64,000 bases of DNA from Cyclobacteriaceae bacterium. Its GTDB lineage: Bacteria > Bacteroidota > Bacteroidia > Cytophagales > Cyclobacteriaceae. The DNA lies in contig JANQKF010000024.1 in assembly GCA_028281285.1 (NCBI GenBank), positions 1 through 64,000 of the forward strand, written 5' to 3'. Within the stretch, counting starts at the first letter, position 1. The number at the start of each line of letters is the position of its first letter. Shown piece by piece: positions 2,146 through 7,510 of this stretch. A program made the position numbers and the translations under genes. A model generated the notes under the pieces. That model saw nothing but the letters and a program-made list of their open reading frames with translations, ran no database searches and was not told the origin of the DNA.

Positions 2146-4164
2146 ATGAGATTCCATCTTTCTATTTCCCTCCTTCTGTGCCTGTGCTTCAATTGGTCAA
2201 TTGCTCAGTCGAAGATTTCAGGGTCCATAAAAGATAGAGAATCGGGTGAACCGATATTTGGTGCAATAGTCTTCATCGAAAACACCAAAGTGGGCACTAC
2301 CACCGACCCAGATGGAAACTTTGAGCTAGGAAACATTCCTACAGGTTTCAACAAATTGGTGGTTAGCCATGTGGGTTATAAAAACTACTCGGGGCAACTC
2401 TCCGGAAAGACCGTACTCAATATCCAATTGCGGCCGGATGTCAGACAATTGGCCCAGGTAGACGTTACGCAAAAGCAAGACCGCCAATGGAAACGACTCT
2501 ATGCCCAATTCGAAAAGGTATTTCTTGGCAATACGATCAATGGAAAACAGTCAAAAATTTTAAATCCATGGGTGGTAGAGTTGAGCAAAGATAAGGACGG
2601 CAAGGTGTGGGGATATTCTACGGATCTCATCCAAATTGAAAATAGGGGCACGGGTTACCAAATCGACTTTTTGTTAGAAAAACTTGAGATGCTGAATAAT
2701 CAAGTTACCTATTCAGGCAAACCCCTATTCAAAGACCTTGAACCAAAGGATGCCGCAGAAAGAAAACGATGGAAAAACAACCGCAAGCGGACCTATTCCG
2801 GCTCCAAACAGCAGTTTATCTATGCCTTAATGAATGATCAATTGGAAGAACTGGGGTTCGAGGTGTATAAGGCACAAATTGATCATGAAACGAAAGGCTT
2901 CAAAACCCTCCAGCGATTGACTGCCGACAAACTCTATTCAAATGGAGAAATAAAGTTCTCTGAATTCATTCGCATTGTTTACAAAAATGAGGATGCGGAA
3001 GCAGGCTATCAAAGTGATGCCAATCAAAGATTTGCAATGCCCTACGATGGTCCTGACCACAAAATGGTACGTGGAGGTATTGCCATCCAAAATGGTCCTG
3101 AAGGCACATTACAGGTTTCTTACCTATTCAACCGCGCTTCAAAAGTTTTCCTAAACGAAAATGGGCTTATCAAAAACCCGGAGTACCTTTTGGAATATGG
3201 ATACTGGGGATGGGAAAGAATTGGAGAACTTCTACCTAATGAATACCATCTGGAGCTGATAGGTTCCTCTGCGGAAGAAGCTGAGGATGGAGCAGCAAGT
3301 GCAGCACCAACAAAAAATGGATTTGTACTTTCAAACCTCTTGGTCGACAAGGACGATTTAGTAAGTGGCAATGTTGAAAAAAATGGCATTCCCGCCATTA
3401 GCAGTCCAAAATTCGAAGATGCAACTTCCAATTCATGGCTGGGCAAAAAAGATATGGTTTTGGGTGTTGAGTTTAATGGCGAAGCACGTGCATATCCTAT
3501 CAGCATTCTGGACCGTCACGAAGCGGTGAACGATGAGTTTAATGGAGTACCTGTTCTCATCACCTATTGCCCTCTTTGTGGAAGTGGGATGGCCTTTAAC
3601 CCTTCAGTTGAAGGAAAGAAAATGACCTTTGGCGTCTCCGGTCTACTTTATAACAGTGATGTCTTGCTTTATGATAATGAAACGCAATCATTATGGTCGC
3701 AAATCGAATCCAAAGCGATATCAGGGGAAATGTCTGGTAGGAAATTGGAGCATCTACCCACTTACCATATGTCATGGCCCGAATGGAAATCCAAATTCCC
3801 TAATGGCAAGGTGATGACGAAAGAAACCGGTTTTGACTTTGACTATGGTACACCAGCTTATAAAGGGTATGACAAAAGTCCTCAGATACTATTCCCGGTA
3901 AAAGACCAGAACCCTTATCTGTCTACCAAAGAGCTAGTCATTGGAGTAACGATAAATGGTAAACATAAATCCTATACTCTTAAGAAACTCAGAAAGCTTA
4001 AGAAGGCCATGGAGGACGAATTAGGCGGCAAGAAGATTTTCATTACCTATCTTTCTTCTAGTAATTCTGCCGTGATTCACGATGAAAACGGAAATGTTGT
4101 GCCATCGACTCGATTGTTTTGGTTTGCCTGGTACGCATTCCACCCAGACACCGAGGTATATTAA
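2146..4164 (+). CDS. Secreted fusion: carboxypeptidase-regulatory-like domain plus DUF3179
   Basis: This 672-residue protein has an N-terminal signal peptide ending near SIAQ. A CarboxypepD_reg-like beta-sandwich (about residues 22-105) is recognisable from SGSIKDRESGEPIFGA and TDPDGNFEL. A middle region (about 110-375) resembles uncharacterised Bacteroidota proteins that carry this domain. After an alanine/glutamate-rich linker (SSAEEAEDGAAS) comes a full DUF3179 domain (about 415-672) with LGVEFNGEARAYPI and a CPLC pair at C475/C478. DUF3179 proteins are usually separate secreted proteins of unknown function, so the fusion is unusual. The frame is continuous and I see no frameshift at the join. 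The HD gene follows after 7 bp, suggesting one transcript. Export is likely; the biochemical role is unknown. Confidence 0.85.
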   Translation: MRFHLSISLLLCLCFNWSIAQSKISGSIKDRESGEPIFGAIVFIENTKVGTTTDPDGNFELGNIPTGFNKLVVSHVGYKNYSGQLSGKTVLNIQLRPDVRQLAQVDVTQKQDRQWKRLYAQFEKVFLGNTINGKQSKILNPWVVELSKDKDGKVWGYSTDLIQIENRGTGYQIDFLLEKLEMLNNQVTYSGKPLFKDLEPKDAAERKRWKNNRKRTYSGSKQQFIYALMNDQLEELGFEVYKAQIDHETKGFKTLQRLTADKLYSNGEIKFSEFIRIVYKNEDAEAGYQSDANQRFAMPYDGPDHKMVRGGIAIQNGPEGTLQVSYLFNRASKVFLNENGLIKNPEYLLEYGYWGWERIGELLPNEYHLELIGSSAEEAEDGAASAAPTKNGFVLSNLLVDKDDLVSGNVEKNGIPAISSPKFEDATSNSWLGKKDMVLGVEFNGEARAYPISILDRHEAVNDEFNGVPVLITYCPLCGSGMAFNPSVEGKKMTFGVSGLLYNSDVLLYDNETQSLWSQIESKAISGEMSGRKLEHLPTYHMSWPEWKSKFPNGKVMTKETGFDFDYGTPAYKGYDKSPQILFPVKDQNPYLSTKELVIGVTINGKHKSYTLKKLRKLKKAMEDELGGKKIFITYLSSSNSAVIHDENGNVVPSTRLFWFAWYAFHPDTEVY

Positions 4165-4171
4165 AACCATT

Positions 4172-4711
4172 ATGAGAAGACAAGAAGCACGAGAAATACT
4201 CGAGTCCATGACCAAGGGTGATAGCCTTTTAAGGCATGCCAGAAGTGTAGAATTGGTGATGGAGGCTTATGGAAAGCATTTTGGAGAAGATGCGGAGGAA
4301 TGGGCCATTACAGGAATGCTCCATGATGCCGACTATGAAGCCTACCCGGAAGAGCATCCAAATCGGATCGTAGGAATGCTTAGGGAAAAAGGAGAAGAAA
4401 AAATTGCACATGCCATCTCAGCTCATTACACCAAATGGGGAGTTTCCTACGATACACTTCTTGACAAGGCATTACTTGCTTCGGATGAACTCACAGGCTT
4501 TATCATTGCCTGCTGCCAAGTGCGACCAGGAGGCATTGAAGGGCTCACGCCCAAGTCCGTGAAGAAAAAACTCAAGCAAAAGAGCTTTGCAGCAAAAGTT
4601 GAACGGGAAGAAATACAAGCGGGTGTAGACCTCCTTGAAGTCGATATGACTGAGCATATTCAGTTCATTATTGATGTTTTGGAAGCGAATCGTGAAGAGC
4701 TACGTATCTGA
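4172..4711 (+). CDS. HD-domain protein (predicted metal-dependent phosphohydrolase)
   Basis: A 179-residue cytoplasmic protein of the small HDIG/HD family. H22 (LLRHARSVE) and the H51-D52 pair (GMLHDADYEAY) are the expected metal ligands, with further histidines in HAISAHYTKWG. Proteins of this type are predicted phosphohydrolases; the substrate is not known. The ATG at 4172 is chosen because a longer frame would overlap the preceding gene by 80 bp, while this start leaves a 7-bp gap. The TGA at 4709-4711 overlaps an ATG at 4711 (TGATG), which is the start of the duplicated sirtuin 5' end. The original arrangement was therefore probably HD gene directly coupled to the sirtuin. Confidence 0.88.
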   Translation: MRRQEAREILESMTKGDSLLRHARSVELVMEAYGKHFGEDAEEWAITGMLHDADYEAYPEEHPNRIVGMLREKGEEKIAHAISAHYTKWGVSYDTLLDKALLASDELTGFIIACCQVRPGGIEGLTPKSVKKKLKQKSFAAKVEREEIQAGVDLLEVDMTEHIQFIIDVLEANREELRI

Positions 4712-4827
4712 TGAAGAAACTCGTTGTGCTTACCGGTGCTGGTATCAGTGCAGAAAGCGGACTCAAAACGTTCCGAGACTTAGTTTTTTCATCTCGACCG
4801 AAGTGGAGAGATCTGACCAATCTATGA
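4711..4827 (+). pseudogene. Truncated duplicate of the sirtuin 5' end
   Basis: The first 68 bp (4711-4778) repeat the beginning of the intact sirtuin gene (5241-5308) with only two differences, both silent (Val6 GTG/GTA, Ile12 ATC/ATT). After that the sequences diverge abruptly. The frame continues through unrelated, palindromic sequence and stops after 38 codons at TGA 4825-4827. That stop overlaps the ATG of the GIY-YIG gene (ATGA at 4824). The remnant keeps the sirtuin NAD-binding start (LTGAGISAESGL) but cannot be an enzyme. It starts exactly where the HD gene stops, so it can still be translated by coupling and may carry ribosomes onward to the nuclease gene. It marks the left edge of an insertion. 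Confidence 0.85.
4789..4814. repeat. Left palindrome of the GIY-YIG element (REP-like)
   Basis: A short imperfect hairpin between the truncated sirtuin copy and the nuclease start. ATCTC (4791-4795) pairs with GAGAT at 4808-4812 around GACCGAAGTG. The core CGACCGAAG also occurs in the longer palindrome at 17092-17165 in this window. I recall the same kind of sequence as a common intergenic repeat in Bacteroidota genomes. It is read through by the 38-codon remnant. Confidence 0.6.
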
Positions 4828-5165
4828 ACAAGAGCTTCTCGGTTTATATCACCACTAATCCAAAAAAAACTGTTCTGTACGTTGGTAGAACCGAAGATTT
4901 AGGACAGAGATTAATCGAGCATTGGCTCAATCGAGGGGACAAAGACACTTTTGCTGGCAAATATTATTGTTATAACCTCATATACTGGGAATCAACCAAA
5001 TATGTCCTTAACTCAATTGAACGTGAGAAACAACTAAAAAATTGGAGTAGGAAGAAAAAGCTAAAGCTTATTGAAGGATTCAATCCAAATTGGAAATTTC
5101 TAAATCAAGATATCCTTGACTGGCCTCCTCAAGAACCATTTCATCGAAAAGATATTATTTCTTAG
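4824..5165 (+). CDS. GIY-YIG nuclease family protein (single domain, COG2827/YhbQ type)
   Basis: A 113-residue protein with a complete GIY-YIG fold. It has V7-Y8-I9 and Y19-V20-G21 as the two signature strands, R29 (LGQRLIEH) as the expected catalytic arginine, and the EREKQLKNWSR and NPNW motifs typical of the Bacteroidota branch. The predicted activity is endonuclease; the cellular target is unknown. The ATG at 4824 is preferred over the open frame reaching back to 4671, because that extension overlaps the HD gene and the sirtuin remnant in another frame. The gene is flanked by hairpins (4789-4814, 5191-5211) and by 68-bp direct copies of the sirtuin 5' end, so it looks like the cargo of a small mobile unit. 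Its codons look more AT-rich than its neighbours. Confidence 0.9.
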   Translation: MNKSFSVYITTNPKKTVLYVGRTEDLGQRLIEHWLNRGDKDTFAGKYYCYNLIYWESTKYVLNSIEREKQLKNWSRKKKLKLIEGFNPNWKFLNQDILDWPPQEPFHRKDIIS

Positions 5166-5190
5166 CTTCCTTCTTAAGTGGTTAGAATAG

Positions 5191-5211
5191 ATGTCTCGAC
5201 AAGCTCGACAT
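5191..5211. repeat. Right palindrome of the GIY-YIG element
   Basis: A hairpin ATGTC(T)CGA-caagc-TCGACAT with one bulged base, 25 bp after the nuclease stop. It sits 29 bp before the intact sirtuin ATG, so it marks the right end of the inserted unit. It is not the reverse complement of the left palindrome, so the element does not have classical terminal inverted repeats. The TCGACAAGCTCGA core is a form I recall from Bacteroidota intergenic repeats. Confidence 0.55.
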
Positions 5212-5240
5212 AGAAAAGCTCTAATAATAGAATTAGTTGT

Positions 5241-5933
5241 ATGAAGAAACTCGTTGTACTTACCGGTGCTGGTATTAGTGCAGAAAGCGGACTCAAAACG
5301 TTCCGAGAATCCGATGGGCTCTGGGAAGGCCATGATGTTATGAAAGTGGCTTCTCCGATTGGATGGGCTAAGAACCCCGAGTTGGTACTTGATTTCTATA
5401 ATCAAAGAAGGAAGCAGGGGCTCAATGCTAAACCTAACGATGGTCATCTGATCTTAAAGGAACTAGAATCCTATTTTGACGTGGTGATCGTTACCCAAAA
5501 CGTGGACAATCTCCACGAAAAAGCTGGATCGTCAAATGTGATTCACCTGCATGGTCAATTATTTCAATCAAGAAGTACCAAGGATCCCTCATTGATTTAT
5601 GAAATGGAGGATTGGCAACTGAATCTTGGCGATACATGCGAACTTGGCTCCCAACTACGGCCAAATATCGTATGGTTCGGAGAAGCAGTACCAATGATGG
5701 AAGTAGCAATGATGCATGCTCAACAAGCTGATATTTTCCTTGTGGTAGGCACTTCTCTTCAAGTTTATCCTGCAGCTGGATTAATTGATTTTGTATCCTT
5801 AAACGCCCCCAAATACATTGTTGATCCCAATAAACCTGAGACCGGAATTTATCCCAATCTGCGCTTTGTGGTAGACAAAGCTTCAACCGGAATGAGAAAA
5901 ATTCAGGAAGAACTACTAAGGGAATTCAATTAG
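5241..5933 (+). CDS. cobB: NAD-dependent protein deacylase, sirtuin class III (CobB/SIRT5-like)
   Basis: A 230-residue sirtuin that removes acyl groups from lysine using NAD+. Visible motifs are GAGISAESGL (NAD binding), FYNQRRKQG (the Tyr/Arg pair associated with succinyl/malonyl-lysine specificity in class III), TQNVDNLHEKAG, the catalytic histidine in HLHG, LRPNIVWFGE and GTSLQVYPAAG. The usual two CxxC zinc pairs are absent: the region RSTKDPSLIYEMEDW to GDTCELGS contains a single cysteine. The start is secure because the same 68 bp are duplicated at 4711. The current upstream sequence (5212-5240) comes from the inserted element, so the gene has lost its original overlap with the HD gene and may now be expressed differently. 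Confidence 0.93.
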   Translation: MKKLVVLTGAGISAESGLKTFRESDGLWEGHDVMKVASPIGWAKNPELVLDFYNQRRKQGLNAKPNDGHLILKELESYFDVVIVTQNVDNLHEKAGSSNVIHLHGQLFQSRSTKDPSLIYEMEDWQLNLGDTCELGSQLRPNIVWFGEAVPMMEVAMMHAQQADIFLVVGTSLQVYPAAGLIDFVSLNAPKYIVDPNKPETGIYPNLRFVVDKASTGMRKIQEELLREFN

Positions 5934-5936
5934 TTC

Positions 5937-5967
5937 TTTGTTAGTAAAGAAATTTAGCACACATTTG
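5937..5967 (+). promoter_or_regulatory. Possible Bacteroidota-type promoter before leader ORF/MATE gene
   Basis: TTTG at 5937-5940 is followed after 19 bp by CACATTTG at 5960-5967. This fits the -33 TTTG and -7 TAnnTTTG pattern of Bacteroidota with one mismatch in the -7 element. Transcription would begin near 5974, just ahead of a 23-codon ORF and a hairpin. Read by eye only. Confidence 0.4.
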
Positions 5968-5982
5968 TGCCATCATGAAGTT

Positions 5983-6054
5983 ATGAGAATTATCGACTAC
6001 ATATCCACCAAGCTGCGAAAGGATCTGGTCATAGAGCCGGGAAGCTTAAATTAA
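5983..6054 (+). CDS. Possible 23-residue leader peptide upstream of MATE gene
   Basis: A short frame, MRIIDYISTKLRKDL followed by VIEPGSLN, begins 9 bp after the predicted transcription start and ends at TAA 6052-6054. The stop lies inside a hairpin (GGGAAGCT 6039-6046 with AGCCTCCC 6054-6061, one mismatch), followed by a T-rich run (6071-6083) and then the MATE start at 6104. A translated leader overlapping a hairpin would suit attenuation or translation-dependent control, but the peptide matches no leader I know. It may be chance. Confidence 0.3.
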   Translation: MRIIDYISTKLRKDLVIEPGSLN

Positions 6055-6103
6055 GCCTCCCCTCCCCGCTTTATTATTTTTTTAATTACATAATTCTCAA
6101 TTA

Positions 6104-7510
6104 ATGAAAAGTTCTAAACTCTCTATAAAGAGGTTTTTTCAATACCTCAAAATCGCTATCACTGGTAAAGAGCAAGATTTTACCACAGGTAGCATACGCA
6201 GGGCAATTTTTATGCTCAGCATTCCTATGATCCTGGAAATGTTGATGGAATCGACCTTTGCCTTGGTGGACATGATCTTCGTTTCACGAGTCAGTACCAA
6301 TGCCATCGCGACCGTTGTCCTGACCGAATCTGTGATTACATTAATCTATGCAGTAGCCATCGGACTAAGCATGGCCGCAACAGCTGTAGTTGCTAGAAGA
6401 ACCGGTGAAAAGGACATGGACGGTGCATCCAAAACAGCAGTTCAAACCATAATTCTTGGATCGGCTGTAGCCGCTATAATCGGCTCCTTGGGTATTATTT
6501 TTCCAAAGGAAATATTAGGTCTAATGGGTGGCGAGCCGGACCTGATCGCTGAAGGTTATGGCTATACACGCGTACTTATGGGTGGAAGCATTACTGTGGT
6601 ACTCTTATTCCTTATCAATGCGATCTTTCGAGGAGCGGGCGATGCTTCCATTGCGATGTGGATGTTAGTCATTTCCAATGGTTTGAATATCATTCTTGAC
6701 CCGATGTTCATCTTTGGTTTCGGCCCTATTCCAGCCTATGGTGTGGAAGGAGCCGCGATTGCCACCACCATTGGGCGTGGTACAGCGGTTATAGGTCAGC
6801 TATTGGTATTGTTCTATGGGTGGAGCCGTATCAAAGTAGGTTTCAAGGACATCGTCCTTCGACTAGACATTATGTGGAACTTGATCAAAGTGTCTCTTGG
6901 TGGCATTGGTCAATTTCTAATTGCCACATCCAGTTGGGTATTCCTGACAAGGATTATGTCTGAGTTCGGAAGTGCGGTACTGGCTGGCTATGGCATTTCT
7001 ATTAGAGTAATGATGTTCACTTTGATGCCATCCTGGGGTATGAGCAATGCAGCAGCAACACTCGTTGGACAAAATTTGGGTGCCGAACAACCTGAAAGAG
7101 CCGAAAAGTCAGTGTGGAAAACCGGGAAATATAACGCCACCTTCATGGTTGCTGTTTCCTTGATCTACCTCTTTTTTGCCAAAACCATTGTTGGCTTGTT
7201 CAAAGACCAGCCTGACGTAATTGATGCAGGCGCTTTAAGTCTTCAAGTAATTGCGGCCGGATATGTCTTCTATGCCTATGGTATGGTGTTGATTCAGTCG
7301 TTCAACGGTGCAGGAGATACTAAAACACCAACCGTGATTAACTTCTTCTGTTTCTGGCTGTTTCAGCTACCTCTTGCCTACTTATTGGCGATCCAAATGG
7401 ATTGGGGGCCTTTGGGTGTATACCTTGCAATTACAGTTGCTGAAACTTTGATTGCTGTTGTATCCATGCATTGGTTCAAAAAGGGTAAATGGAAACTGGT
7501 GAAAGTCTGA
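6104..7510 (+). CDS. MATE family efflux transporter
   Basis: A 468-residue inner-membrane protein with the usual 12 hydrophobic segments in two halves. MATE proteins export cationic drugs or metabolites using H+ or Na+. Family-typical stretches include AIFRGAGDAS (near residue 170) and the matching SFNGAGDTKTPT in the second half, with PMFIFGFGPIPAYGVEGAA between them. The N-terminus carries an extra 30 or so residues (MKSSKLSIKRFFQYL onward) compared with the second MATE in this window. Its TGA (7508-7510) overlaps the ATG of the glycosyltransferase (TGATG), so the two are translationally coupled. The substrate cannot be inferred. Confidence 0.93.
   Translation: MKSSKLSIKRFFQYLKIAITGKEQDFTTGSIRRAIFMLSIPMILEMLMESTFALVDMIFVSRVSTNAIATVVLTESVITLIYAVAIGLSMAATAVVARRTGEKDMDGASKTAVQTIILGSAVAAIIGSLGIIFPKEILGLMGGEPDLIAEGYGYTRVLMGGSITVVLLFLINAIFRGAGDASIAMWMLVISNGLNIILDPMFIFGFGPIPAYGVEGAAIATTIGRGTAVIGQLLVLFYGWSRIKVGFKDIVLRLDIMWNLIKVSLGGIGQFLIATSSWVFLTRIMSEFGSAVLAGYGISIRVMMFTLMPSWGMSNAAATLVGQNLGAEQPERAEKSVWKTGKYNATFMVAVSLIYLFFAKTIVGLFKDQPDVIDAGALSLQVIAAGYVFYAYGMVLIQSFNGAGDTKTPTVINFFCFWLFQLPLAYLLAIQMDWGPLGVYLAITVAETLIAVVSMHWFKKGKWKLVKV

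Follow-up and report, generated by a model that had tools for sequence, protein, structure and literature searches.

The sirtuin gene of this Cyclobacteriaceae genome is preceded by a second copy of its own first codons, and a small nuclease gene lies between the two copies. How did this arrangement arise, and how did the host gene stay whole? The locus lies ~4.7 kb from one end of contig C3 (181 kb; genome of 5.16 Mb in 40 contigs); the first 64,000 nucleotides of that contig are the window that we analysed, and the coordinates of the locus refer to this window. In outline, the insert resembles a mobile-type insertion accompanied by a long duplication of its target.

A GIY-YIG gene between two copies of the sirtuin start

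The features of the locus are the following:
4172..4711, + strand: HD-domain gene (PF01966, E=1.6e-5); its stop TGA (4709-4711) overlaps the upstream sirtuin ATG (TGATG)
4711..4778, + strand: upstream 68-bp copy of the sirtuin start, 66/68 identical to 5241-5308
4711..4827, + strand: putative 38-aa sirtuin stub ORF (from translation); its TGA (4825-4827) overlaps the nuclease ATG (4824-4826)
4784..4814, + strand: left recurring palindromic end; core pattern three times in the genome, reversed control 0
4824..5165, + strand: GIY-YIG nuclease gene, 113 aa (PF01541, E=9.6e-13)
5190..5218, + strand: right recurring palindromic end; pattern three times in the genome, reversed control 0
5219..5240, + strand: 22 nt of unexplained origin between the right end and the sirtuin ATG, from by-eye comparison with the two other end copies
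5241..5308, + strand: downstream 68-bp copy, the present sirtuin start, 66/68 identical to the upstream copy
5241..5933, + strand: intact sirtuin gene, 230 aa (PF02146, E=4.2e-42)

As the original prediction stated, the first 68 bp of the sirtuin coding sequence lie on both sides of the nuclease gene as a direct repeat (start-to-start spacing 530), with the upstream copy beginning at the A in TGATG, where the HD gene ends, and running for 22 codons in the sirtuin frame, and the downstream copy giving a full sirtuin. The repeat score of 126 is far above chance when left and right flanks taken from different loci serve as the null (99th percentile 39, maximum 55). The two copies have different flanks on both sides, and their two mismatches, both in third codon positions and both synonymous, are too few for placing either copy among relatives. 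Two other statements need amending. The predicted unit of 530 bp does contain a GIY-YIG gene, but this length is the sum of the insert and one repeat copy; the unique insert is 462 bp (4779-5240), and the nuclease is the sole gene called in it. Likewise, insertion exactly at the start codon is an ambiguous placement, since, given the duplication, the insert can equally be placed 68 bp into the gene.

Stop and start codons overlap in a chain from the HD gene through the sirtuin stub to the nuclease (TGATG, then ATGA; 4709-4827). Judging from the reading frames, translation could be coupled along this chain, or the overlaps may be due to chance. Selection of the target for a hairpin of its own was also considered and rejected, the 68-bp segment being no more stable than its shuffles (z -0.01); the tRNA-Met/terminator repeat at another locus (L045) folds much better (z -6.07).

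Sirtuin loci in relatives

A sirtuin homologue was found in 53 of 59 genomes, and a match to the nuclease at E <= 1e-8 in 33 of the 59, with the own genome included in both counts. We examined 30 sirtuin loci (our own and those of 29 relatives) with 1.5 kb on each side. An HD homologue lies directly upstream in the same direction at 13/29 relatives' loci, with a stop-to-start distance of -1 to 235 nt; at L027 it lies 1168 nt upstream of the sirtuin gene, and 15/29 loci have no HD match within the examined stretch. In the nearest relative (G011), whose sirtuin is 82% identical, the two genes are separated by 29 nt. The empty site that had been predicted, in which the HD stop overlaps the sirtuin ATG exactly as in the upstream copy, is present at three of the 29 loci (L021, L030 and L033), and a GIY-YIG match at none of the 29. 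Taken together with the repeats at other GIY-YIG genes described below, this makes insertion with host-gene repair, as originally proposed, the best reading of the locus.

The ends of the insert recur in the genome

The short palindromes noted earlier on both sides of the nuclease gene are present as sequence and recur elsewhere, but their DNA folds have no more stability than those of shuffled sequences (z 0.10 and 0.70). Their weight comes from recurrence and not from folding. Searched through the genome, the left-end pattern (22 bases, at most 2 mismatches) and the right-end pattern (28 bases, at most 3 mismatches) each gave three matches, and each reversed pattern gave none. The other copies form two nuclease-free pairs in the same orientation on contig C28 (171061-171126 and 171907-171972). 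Since both ends recur as nuclease-free pairs, the ends are the recurring unit, and the sirtuin-locus copy holds the nuclease between its halves. By eye, the element core extends from ~4784 to 5218 (~435 bp), so that 5 nt on the left and 22 nt on the right remain before the repeats.

One trait of REPIN/RAYT systems is found here, in that the REP palindrome pairs also occur without the gene, at a low copy number (three of each end). A Y1/HUH transposase is absent between the sirtuin-locus ends, where only the GIY-YIG gene is present. On C28, the end pairs (L003, ~171.0-172.0 kb) flank a RAYT-like transposase gene, identified by eye rather than by a family search, and terminator-like sequences close to both pairs resemble one another.

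The nuclease is probably a compact single-domain protein

The GIY-YIG catalytic domain (PF01541) fills residues 6-80 of 113, which leaves little space for a separate DNA-binding domain. Invariant columns among 29 relatives include Y8, Y19, R29, H33, E68 and N87, of which we take Y8, Y19, R29 and E68 to be the GIY-YIG active-site residues. The closest solved sequences are compact, single-domain GIY-YIG proteins of the UPF0213 type (1zg2, E=4.1e-8; 1ywl, E=2.7e-7); they were solved as hypothetical proteins, and the records examined contain no link to insertion. A defence-gene reading was rejected, as PADLOC gave no match for the nuclease, HD or sirtuin proteins, and so was an RNA element, with nothing at the Rfam gathering threshold within 4000-6400. 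No named NCBIfam family matched any of the three GIY-YIG proteins tested, and PHROGs gave no match for the two tested.

Repeats around other GIY-YIG genes

Eleven GIY-YIG matches in the own genome correspond to 10 genes, two of the matches being pieces of one gene (L044; its second piece, L046, was left out). All 10 have a direct repeat with a score of at least 30 across the gene within 600 bp, 15 to 102 nt long. This spread of lengths, with 68 bp at the sirtuin locus, differs from the short target duplications of fixed length that classical insertion sequences make. At L041, the nuclease gene is flanked by a 100-bp repeat of which no further full-length copy occurs; other matches cover at most 45 of its bases. 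The nearest paralogue is L038 (61%), which is in contact with the 3' end of a gene named by eye as glutamate-synthase-like, with a shared repeat of 18/19 nt; this host gene is short-tailed, and the frame beyond the element resembles the relatives' tail by eye, in a region where tails vary much between species. Across the whole first locus set, a repeat score of at least 30 was reached at 53/85 loci, against 25/478 offset positions within those loci, and 15/478 offset positions also reached a score of 60. This set comprised 90 loci, two of which were dropped in the cross-locus test and further ones with short flanks thereafter, leaving 85 for the offset control.

For the wider comparison, 204 loci yielded 197 unique GIY-YIG genes, of which 157 best match the sirtuin-locus protein (first type) and 40 best match two other proteins of the own genome (second type). 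Flanks were long enough at 154 first-type and 39 second-type loci, four of the 197 being dropped for a flank under 80 nt. In a tree of 192 proteins (five of the 197, shorter than 70 aa, were left out), all 36 second-type proteins form one group with a support of 0.997.

Among first-type loci, 79/154 have a direct repeat with a score of at least 60, mostly with REP-type palindromes, and 75/154 do not; inverted repeats lie near the gene in 60/143, a count that has no null. Plain host DNA is duplicated, as judged by eye, at only four of the 154: the sirtuin locus; L210, where the end of an aldehyde-dehydrogenase-like gene and its terminator are duplicated (95/87 bp, 80%); L060, with a duplicated 75-bp terminator region (96%); and L038, which is below the score-60 threshold and was found separately. 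Within the score-60 set, 28 repeats are unique within their locus. Three of these are plain host DNA by eye and most others carry REP palindromes, with L050, L139, L151, L153, L215 and L220 left unclassed. The repeat overlaps an ORF of at least 130 aa at ten loci, and apart from the sirtuin locus and L210 these involve REP-type palindromes or doubtful ORFs. A wider scan of 291 genomes gave a match in 36 and 25 new loci (L269, L280 and L282 look like earlier ones); none of the 25 shows a plain host-gene duplication by eye, and all six repeat/ORF overlaps among them are REP-type palindromes. Most first-clade repeats may be REP arrays, which need no act of the nuclease.

Two side observations concern this clade. 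L053 and L054 have the nuclease and neighbouring ORFs in common and differ in the number of REP units, so that the arrays seem to be variable in length. A GIY-YIG gene also lies beside the same aldehyde-dehydrogenase-like gene in several congeners (L241, L249, L244): downstream of it in G013 and G003, and upstream in G002 and, by coordinates, in G010.

Origin of the insert

The reading that we prefer, with moderate confidence, is that a minimal GIY-YIG element inserted at the HD-sirtuin junction and that 68 bp of target were duplicated through separated nicks and gap filling. The element would comprise a REP-like palindromic end, the GIY-YIG gene and a second REP-like end, with the core of ~435 bp. 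Its nuclease would nick each strand of the target, the two nicks lying well apart; the element would be joined to the nicked target ends, and host repair would then fill the long gap, leaving the segment between the nicks on both sides. Because the duplicated segment contains the sirtuin start, the downstream copy would keep the gene whole, and the upstream copy would be left as the 38-aa stub. The staggered nicking, the gap filling, the role of this nuclease as the responsible enzyme and the mode in which the element is copied are what we infer from the arrangement of the sequences. Repeat lengths in the own genome are variable (15 to ~100 nt), unlike the fixed-length duplications of insertion sequences. 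A point against this reading is that it does not account for the 22 nt beside the right repeat.

An unlikely alternative is homing with a passenger, in which the element would have brought the sirtuin start of a donor strain, installed during repair of the nuclease cut, with the upstream copy as the displaced native start. All four coding differences, two at the sirtuin locus and two between the L210 copies, are synonymous, as if both copies had once been functional. By a hand estimate, neutral decay of a dead copy would make ~4/10 differences synonymous and four of four would have a probability of ~0.02; going by these few substitutions, the result points mildly to a copy from another strain over decay of a dead copy. 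At L210, moreover, G003 and G017 have terminators that resemble the far-side one, and G001 has a terminator that resembles the attached one; G003 has a similar nuclease at the same aldehyde-dehydrogenase-like gene end, with no second copy in the stretch read. A precedent exists in fungi, where mobile ORFs bring duplicated gene ends, as described in an excerpt of PMC3630166. On this account, however, elements bearing a sirtuin start would be expected at the sirtuin genes of relatives, where 0/29 have one, and the 97% identity of the two copies is near the expectation for a recent target duplication.

We regard as improbable that a RAYT-like transposase acted on the palindromic ends in REP-type transposition, with the GIY-YIG protein carried along as a passenger or domesticated as a helper. 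Elsewhere in the genome, both ends do occur only on the flanks of the RAYT-like gene (by eye), and many first-clade GIY-YIG genes sit amid REP repeats. However, RAYT/REP movement is not known to us to produce long target duplications; further, in two clades the GIY-YIG genes are themselves associated with flanking repeats, and in one of these clades they lie at tRNA genes (see below).

More remote still is a rearrangement or artefact, be it illegitimate recombination with imported DNA bearing its own sirtuin start or a misassembled repeat. The 22 unplaced nt before the ATG could then correspond to the spacers seen in relatives (1-235 nt), and the locus is 4.7 kb from the contig end. But the copies are distinguished by two differences and by their flanks on either side, the contig is 181 kb long, and import would need a junction exactly at the left end of the element. 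An ordinary insertion sequence was rejected, since the Pfam scan of the three genes gave no transposase, the GIY-YIG gene is alone in the insert and the repeat is 68 bp long.

Relation to known systems

Like the element preferred here, free-standing GIY-YIG homing endonucleases of phages (Seg genes, for example SegB) consist of a single intronless GIY-YIG gene. Seg-type endonucleases home into one allelic site between phages, and are not known to us to have palindromic ends or to duplicate target genes. REP/REPIN sequences with their RAYT are similar in having short palindrome pairs at the ends and non-coding pairs elsewhere in the genome; they depend on a Y1/HUH transposase, whereas the element has a GIY-YIG nuclease between its ends and a long target duplication.

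Closest in logic are the mobile ORFs (mORFs) of fungal mitochondria, which, in the excerpt of PMC3630166, consist of an endonuclease ORF and a duplicated gene end (for example at Glomus atp6, atp9, cox2 and nad3 and at Allomyces atp6), with a GIY-YIG endonuclease in atp9 and LAGLIDADG endonucleases in the others. Both systems have an endonuclease ORF, a second copy of a gene end and a complete gene that is kept. In the same excerpt, the 3' end is the duplicated part, and the attached copy, regarded as foreign, has diverged (nucleotide identity with a relative 64-81%); at the sirtuin locus it is the 5' end that is duplicated, and the identity is 97%. The sirtuin-locus element, for its part, is bacterial, has palindromic ends that recur in the genome and is known from sequence alone. 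Penelope-like retroelements use a GIY-YIG endonuclease for insertion and, in the excerpt of PMC3846280, leave target duplications of 8-10 bp. GIY-YIG-based insertion with target duplication is what we propose for the element; Penelope-like elements are eukaryotic and have a reverse transcriptase, unlike the 462-bp insert with its single 113-aa gene. In the excerpt of a study of palindromic repeats (PMC3733652), Bacteroidetes appear only for CGTC repeats and a GIY-YIG nuclease does not appear. Among the open-access matches listed, none dealt with GIY-YIG elements of bacteria that have REP ends or duplicated ends of host genes or tRNAs, and none explained the small GIY-YIG genes that these bacteria often carry.

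A second clade of GIY-YIG genes beside tRNA genes

A tRNA gene lies within 300 bp of the nuclease gene at 32/39 second-type loci and at 0/154 first-type loci. By a stricter count, 31 of the 39 have a tRNA nearby, the other eight being dropped for want of a usable tRNA within 300 bp, and the best-scoring tRNA points in the direction of the nuclease in 31/31. On the other side of the nuclease gene, 25/31 have a partial copy of the tRNA with the 40 nt that follow it, scoring above the maximum (28) of a null of 2280 scores with flanks from the non-tRNA clade; the remaining 6/31 have no copy above that maximum. An earlier null had been spoiled by real tRNAs in the comparison flanks, and against it 10/31 exceeded the 99th percentile and none the maximum. 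The suggestion that other GIY-YIG genes would be flanked by repeats of a neighbouring gene is therefore well supported for the tRNA clade, and holds for few loci of the sirtuin-locus clade. Many different tRNAs are used by the second clade, which counts against homing with a passenger.

Returning to the preferred reading, we tentatively extend it to both clades, as a possibility that falls short of even confidence: a bacterial transposable element would have the GIY-YIG protein as its sole enzyme, and filling of the gap between nicks tens of bases apart would duplicate gene ends and so spare the host gene. In one clade the duplicated sequences would come from tRNA genes; in the other, they would be REP sites, terminators and the ends of protein genes. 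Such a mechanism would amount to a distinct transposition chemistry, common in Bacteroidota, in which repair of the target is built in. Within this wider pattern, the statistics are strongest for the tRNA-associated clade, and the mechanism is the weakest part. The sirtuin-locus element and its tRNA-side relatives hint at a type of mobile DNA in bacteria that is little described and does not destroy the genes that it enters. If nicks are indeed widely staggered, mobile elements of a few hundred bases could do little harm to their targets, the siting of small GIY-YIG genes at tRNA genes would become understandable, and the fungal mitochondrial elements would have a bacterial, testable parallel. 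The model predicts two nicks, some distance apart, when the purified nuclease acts on the empty HD-sirtuin junction (or on tRNA genes).

At six loci (L047, L165, L184, L167, L177 and L182), the partial tRNA copy is broken by a 20-bp palindrome or has a palindrome in place of the anticodon arm, and an intact tRNA adjoins. Nucleases of the tRNA clade also occur as tandem pairs ~350-440 bp apart, at L238 (G021:C249), L239 (G019:C44) and L240 (G036:C155), and likewise at L234 (G024:C37), L230 (G019:C22) and L228 (G035:C7).
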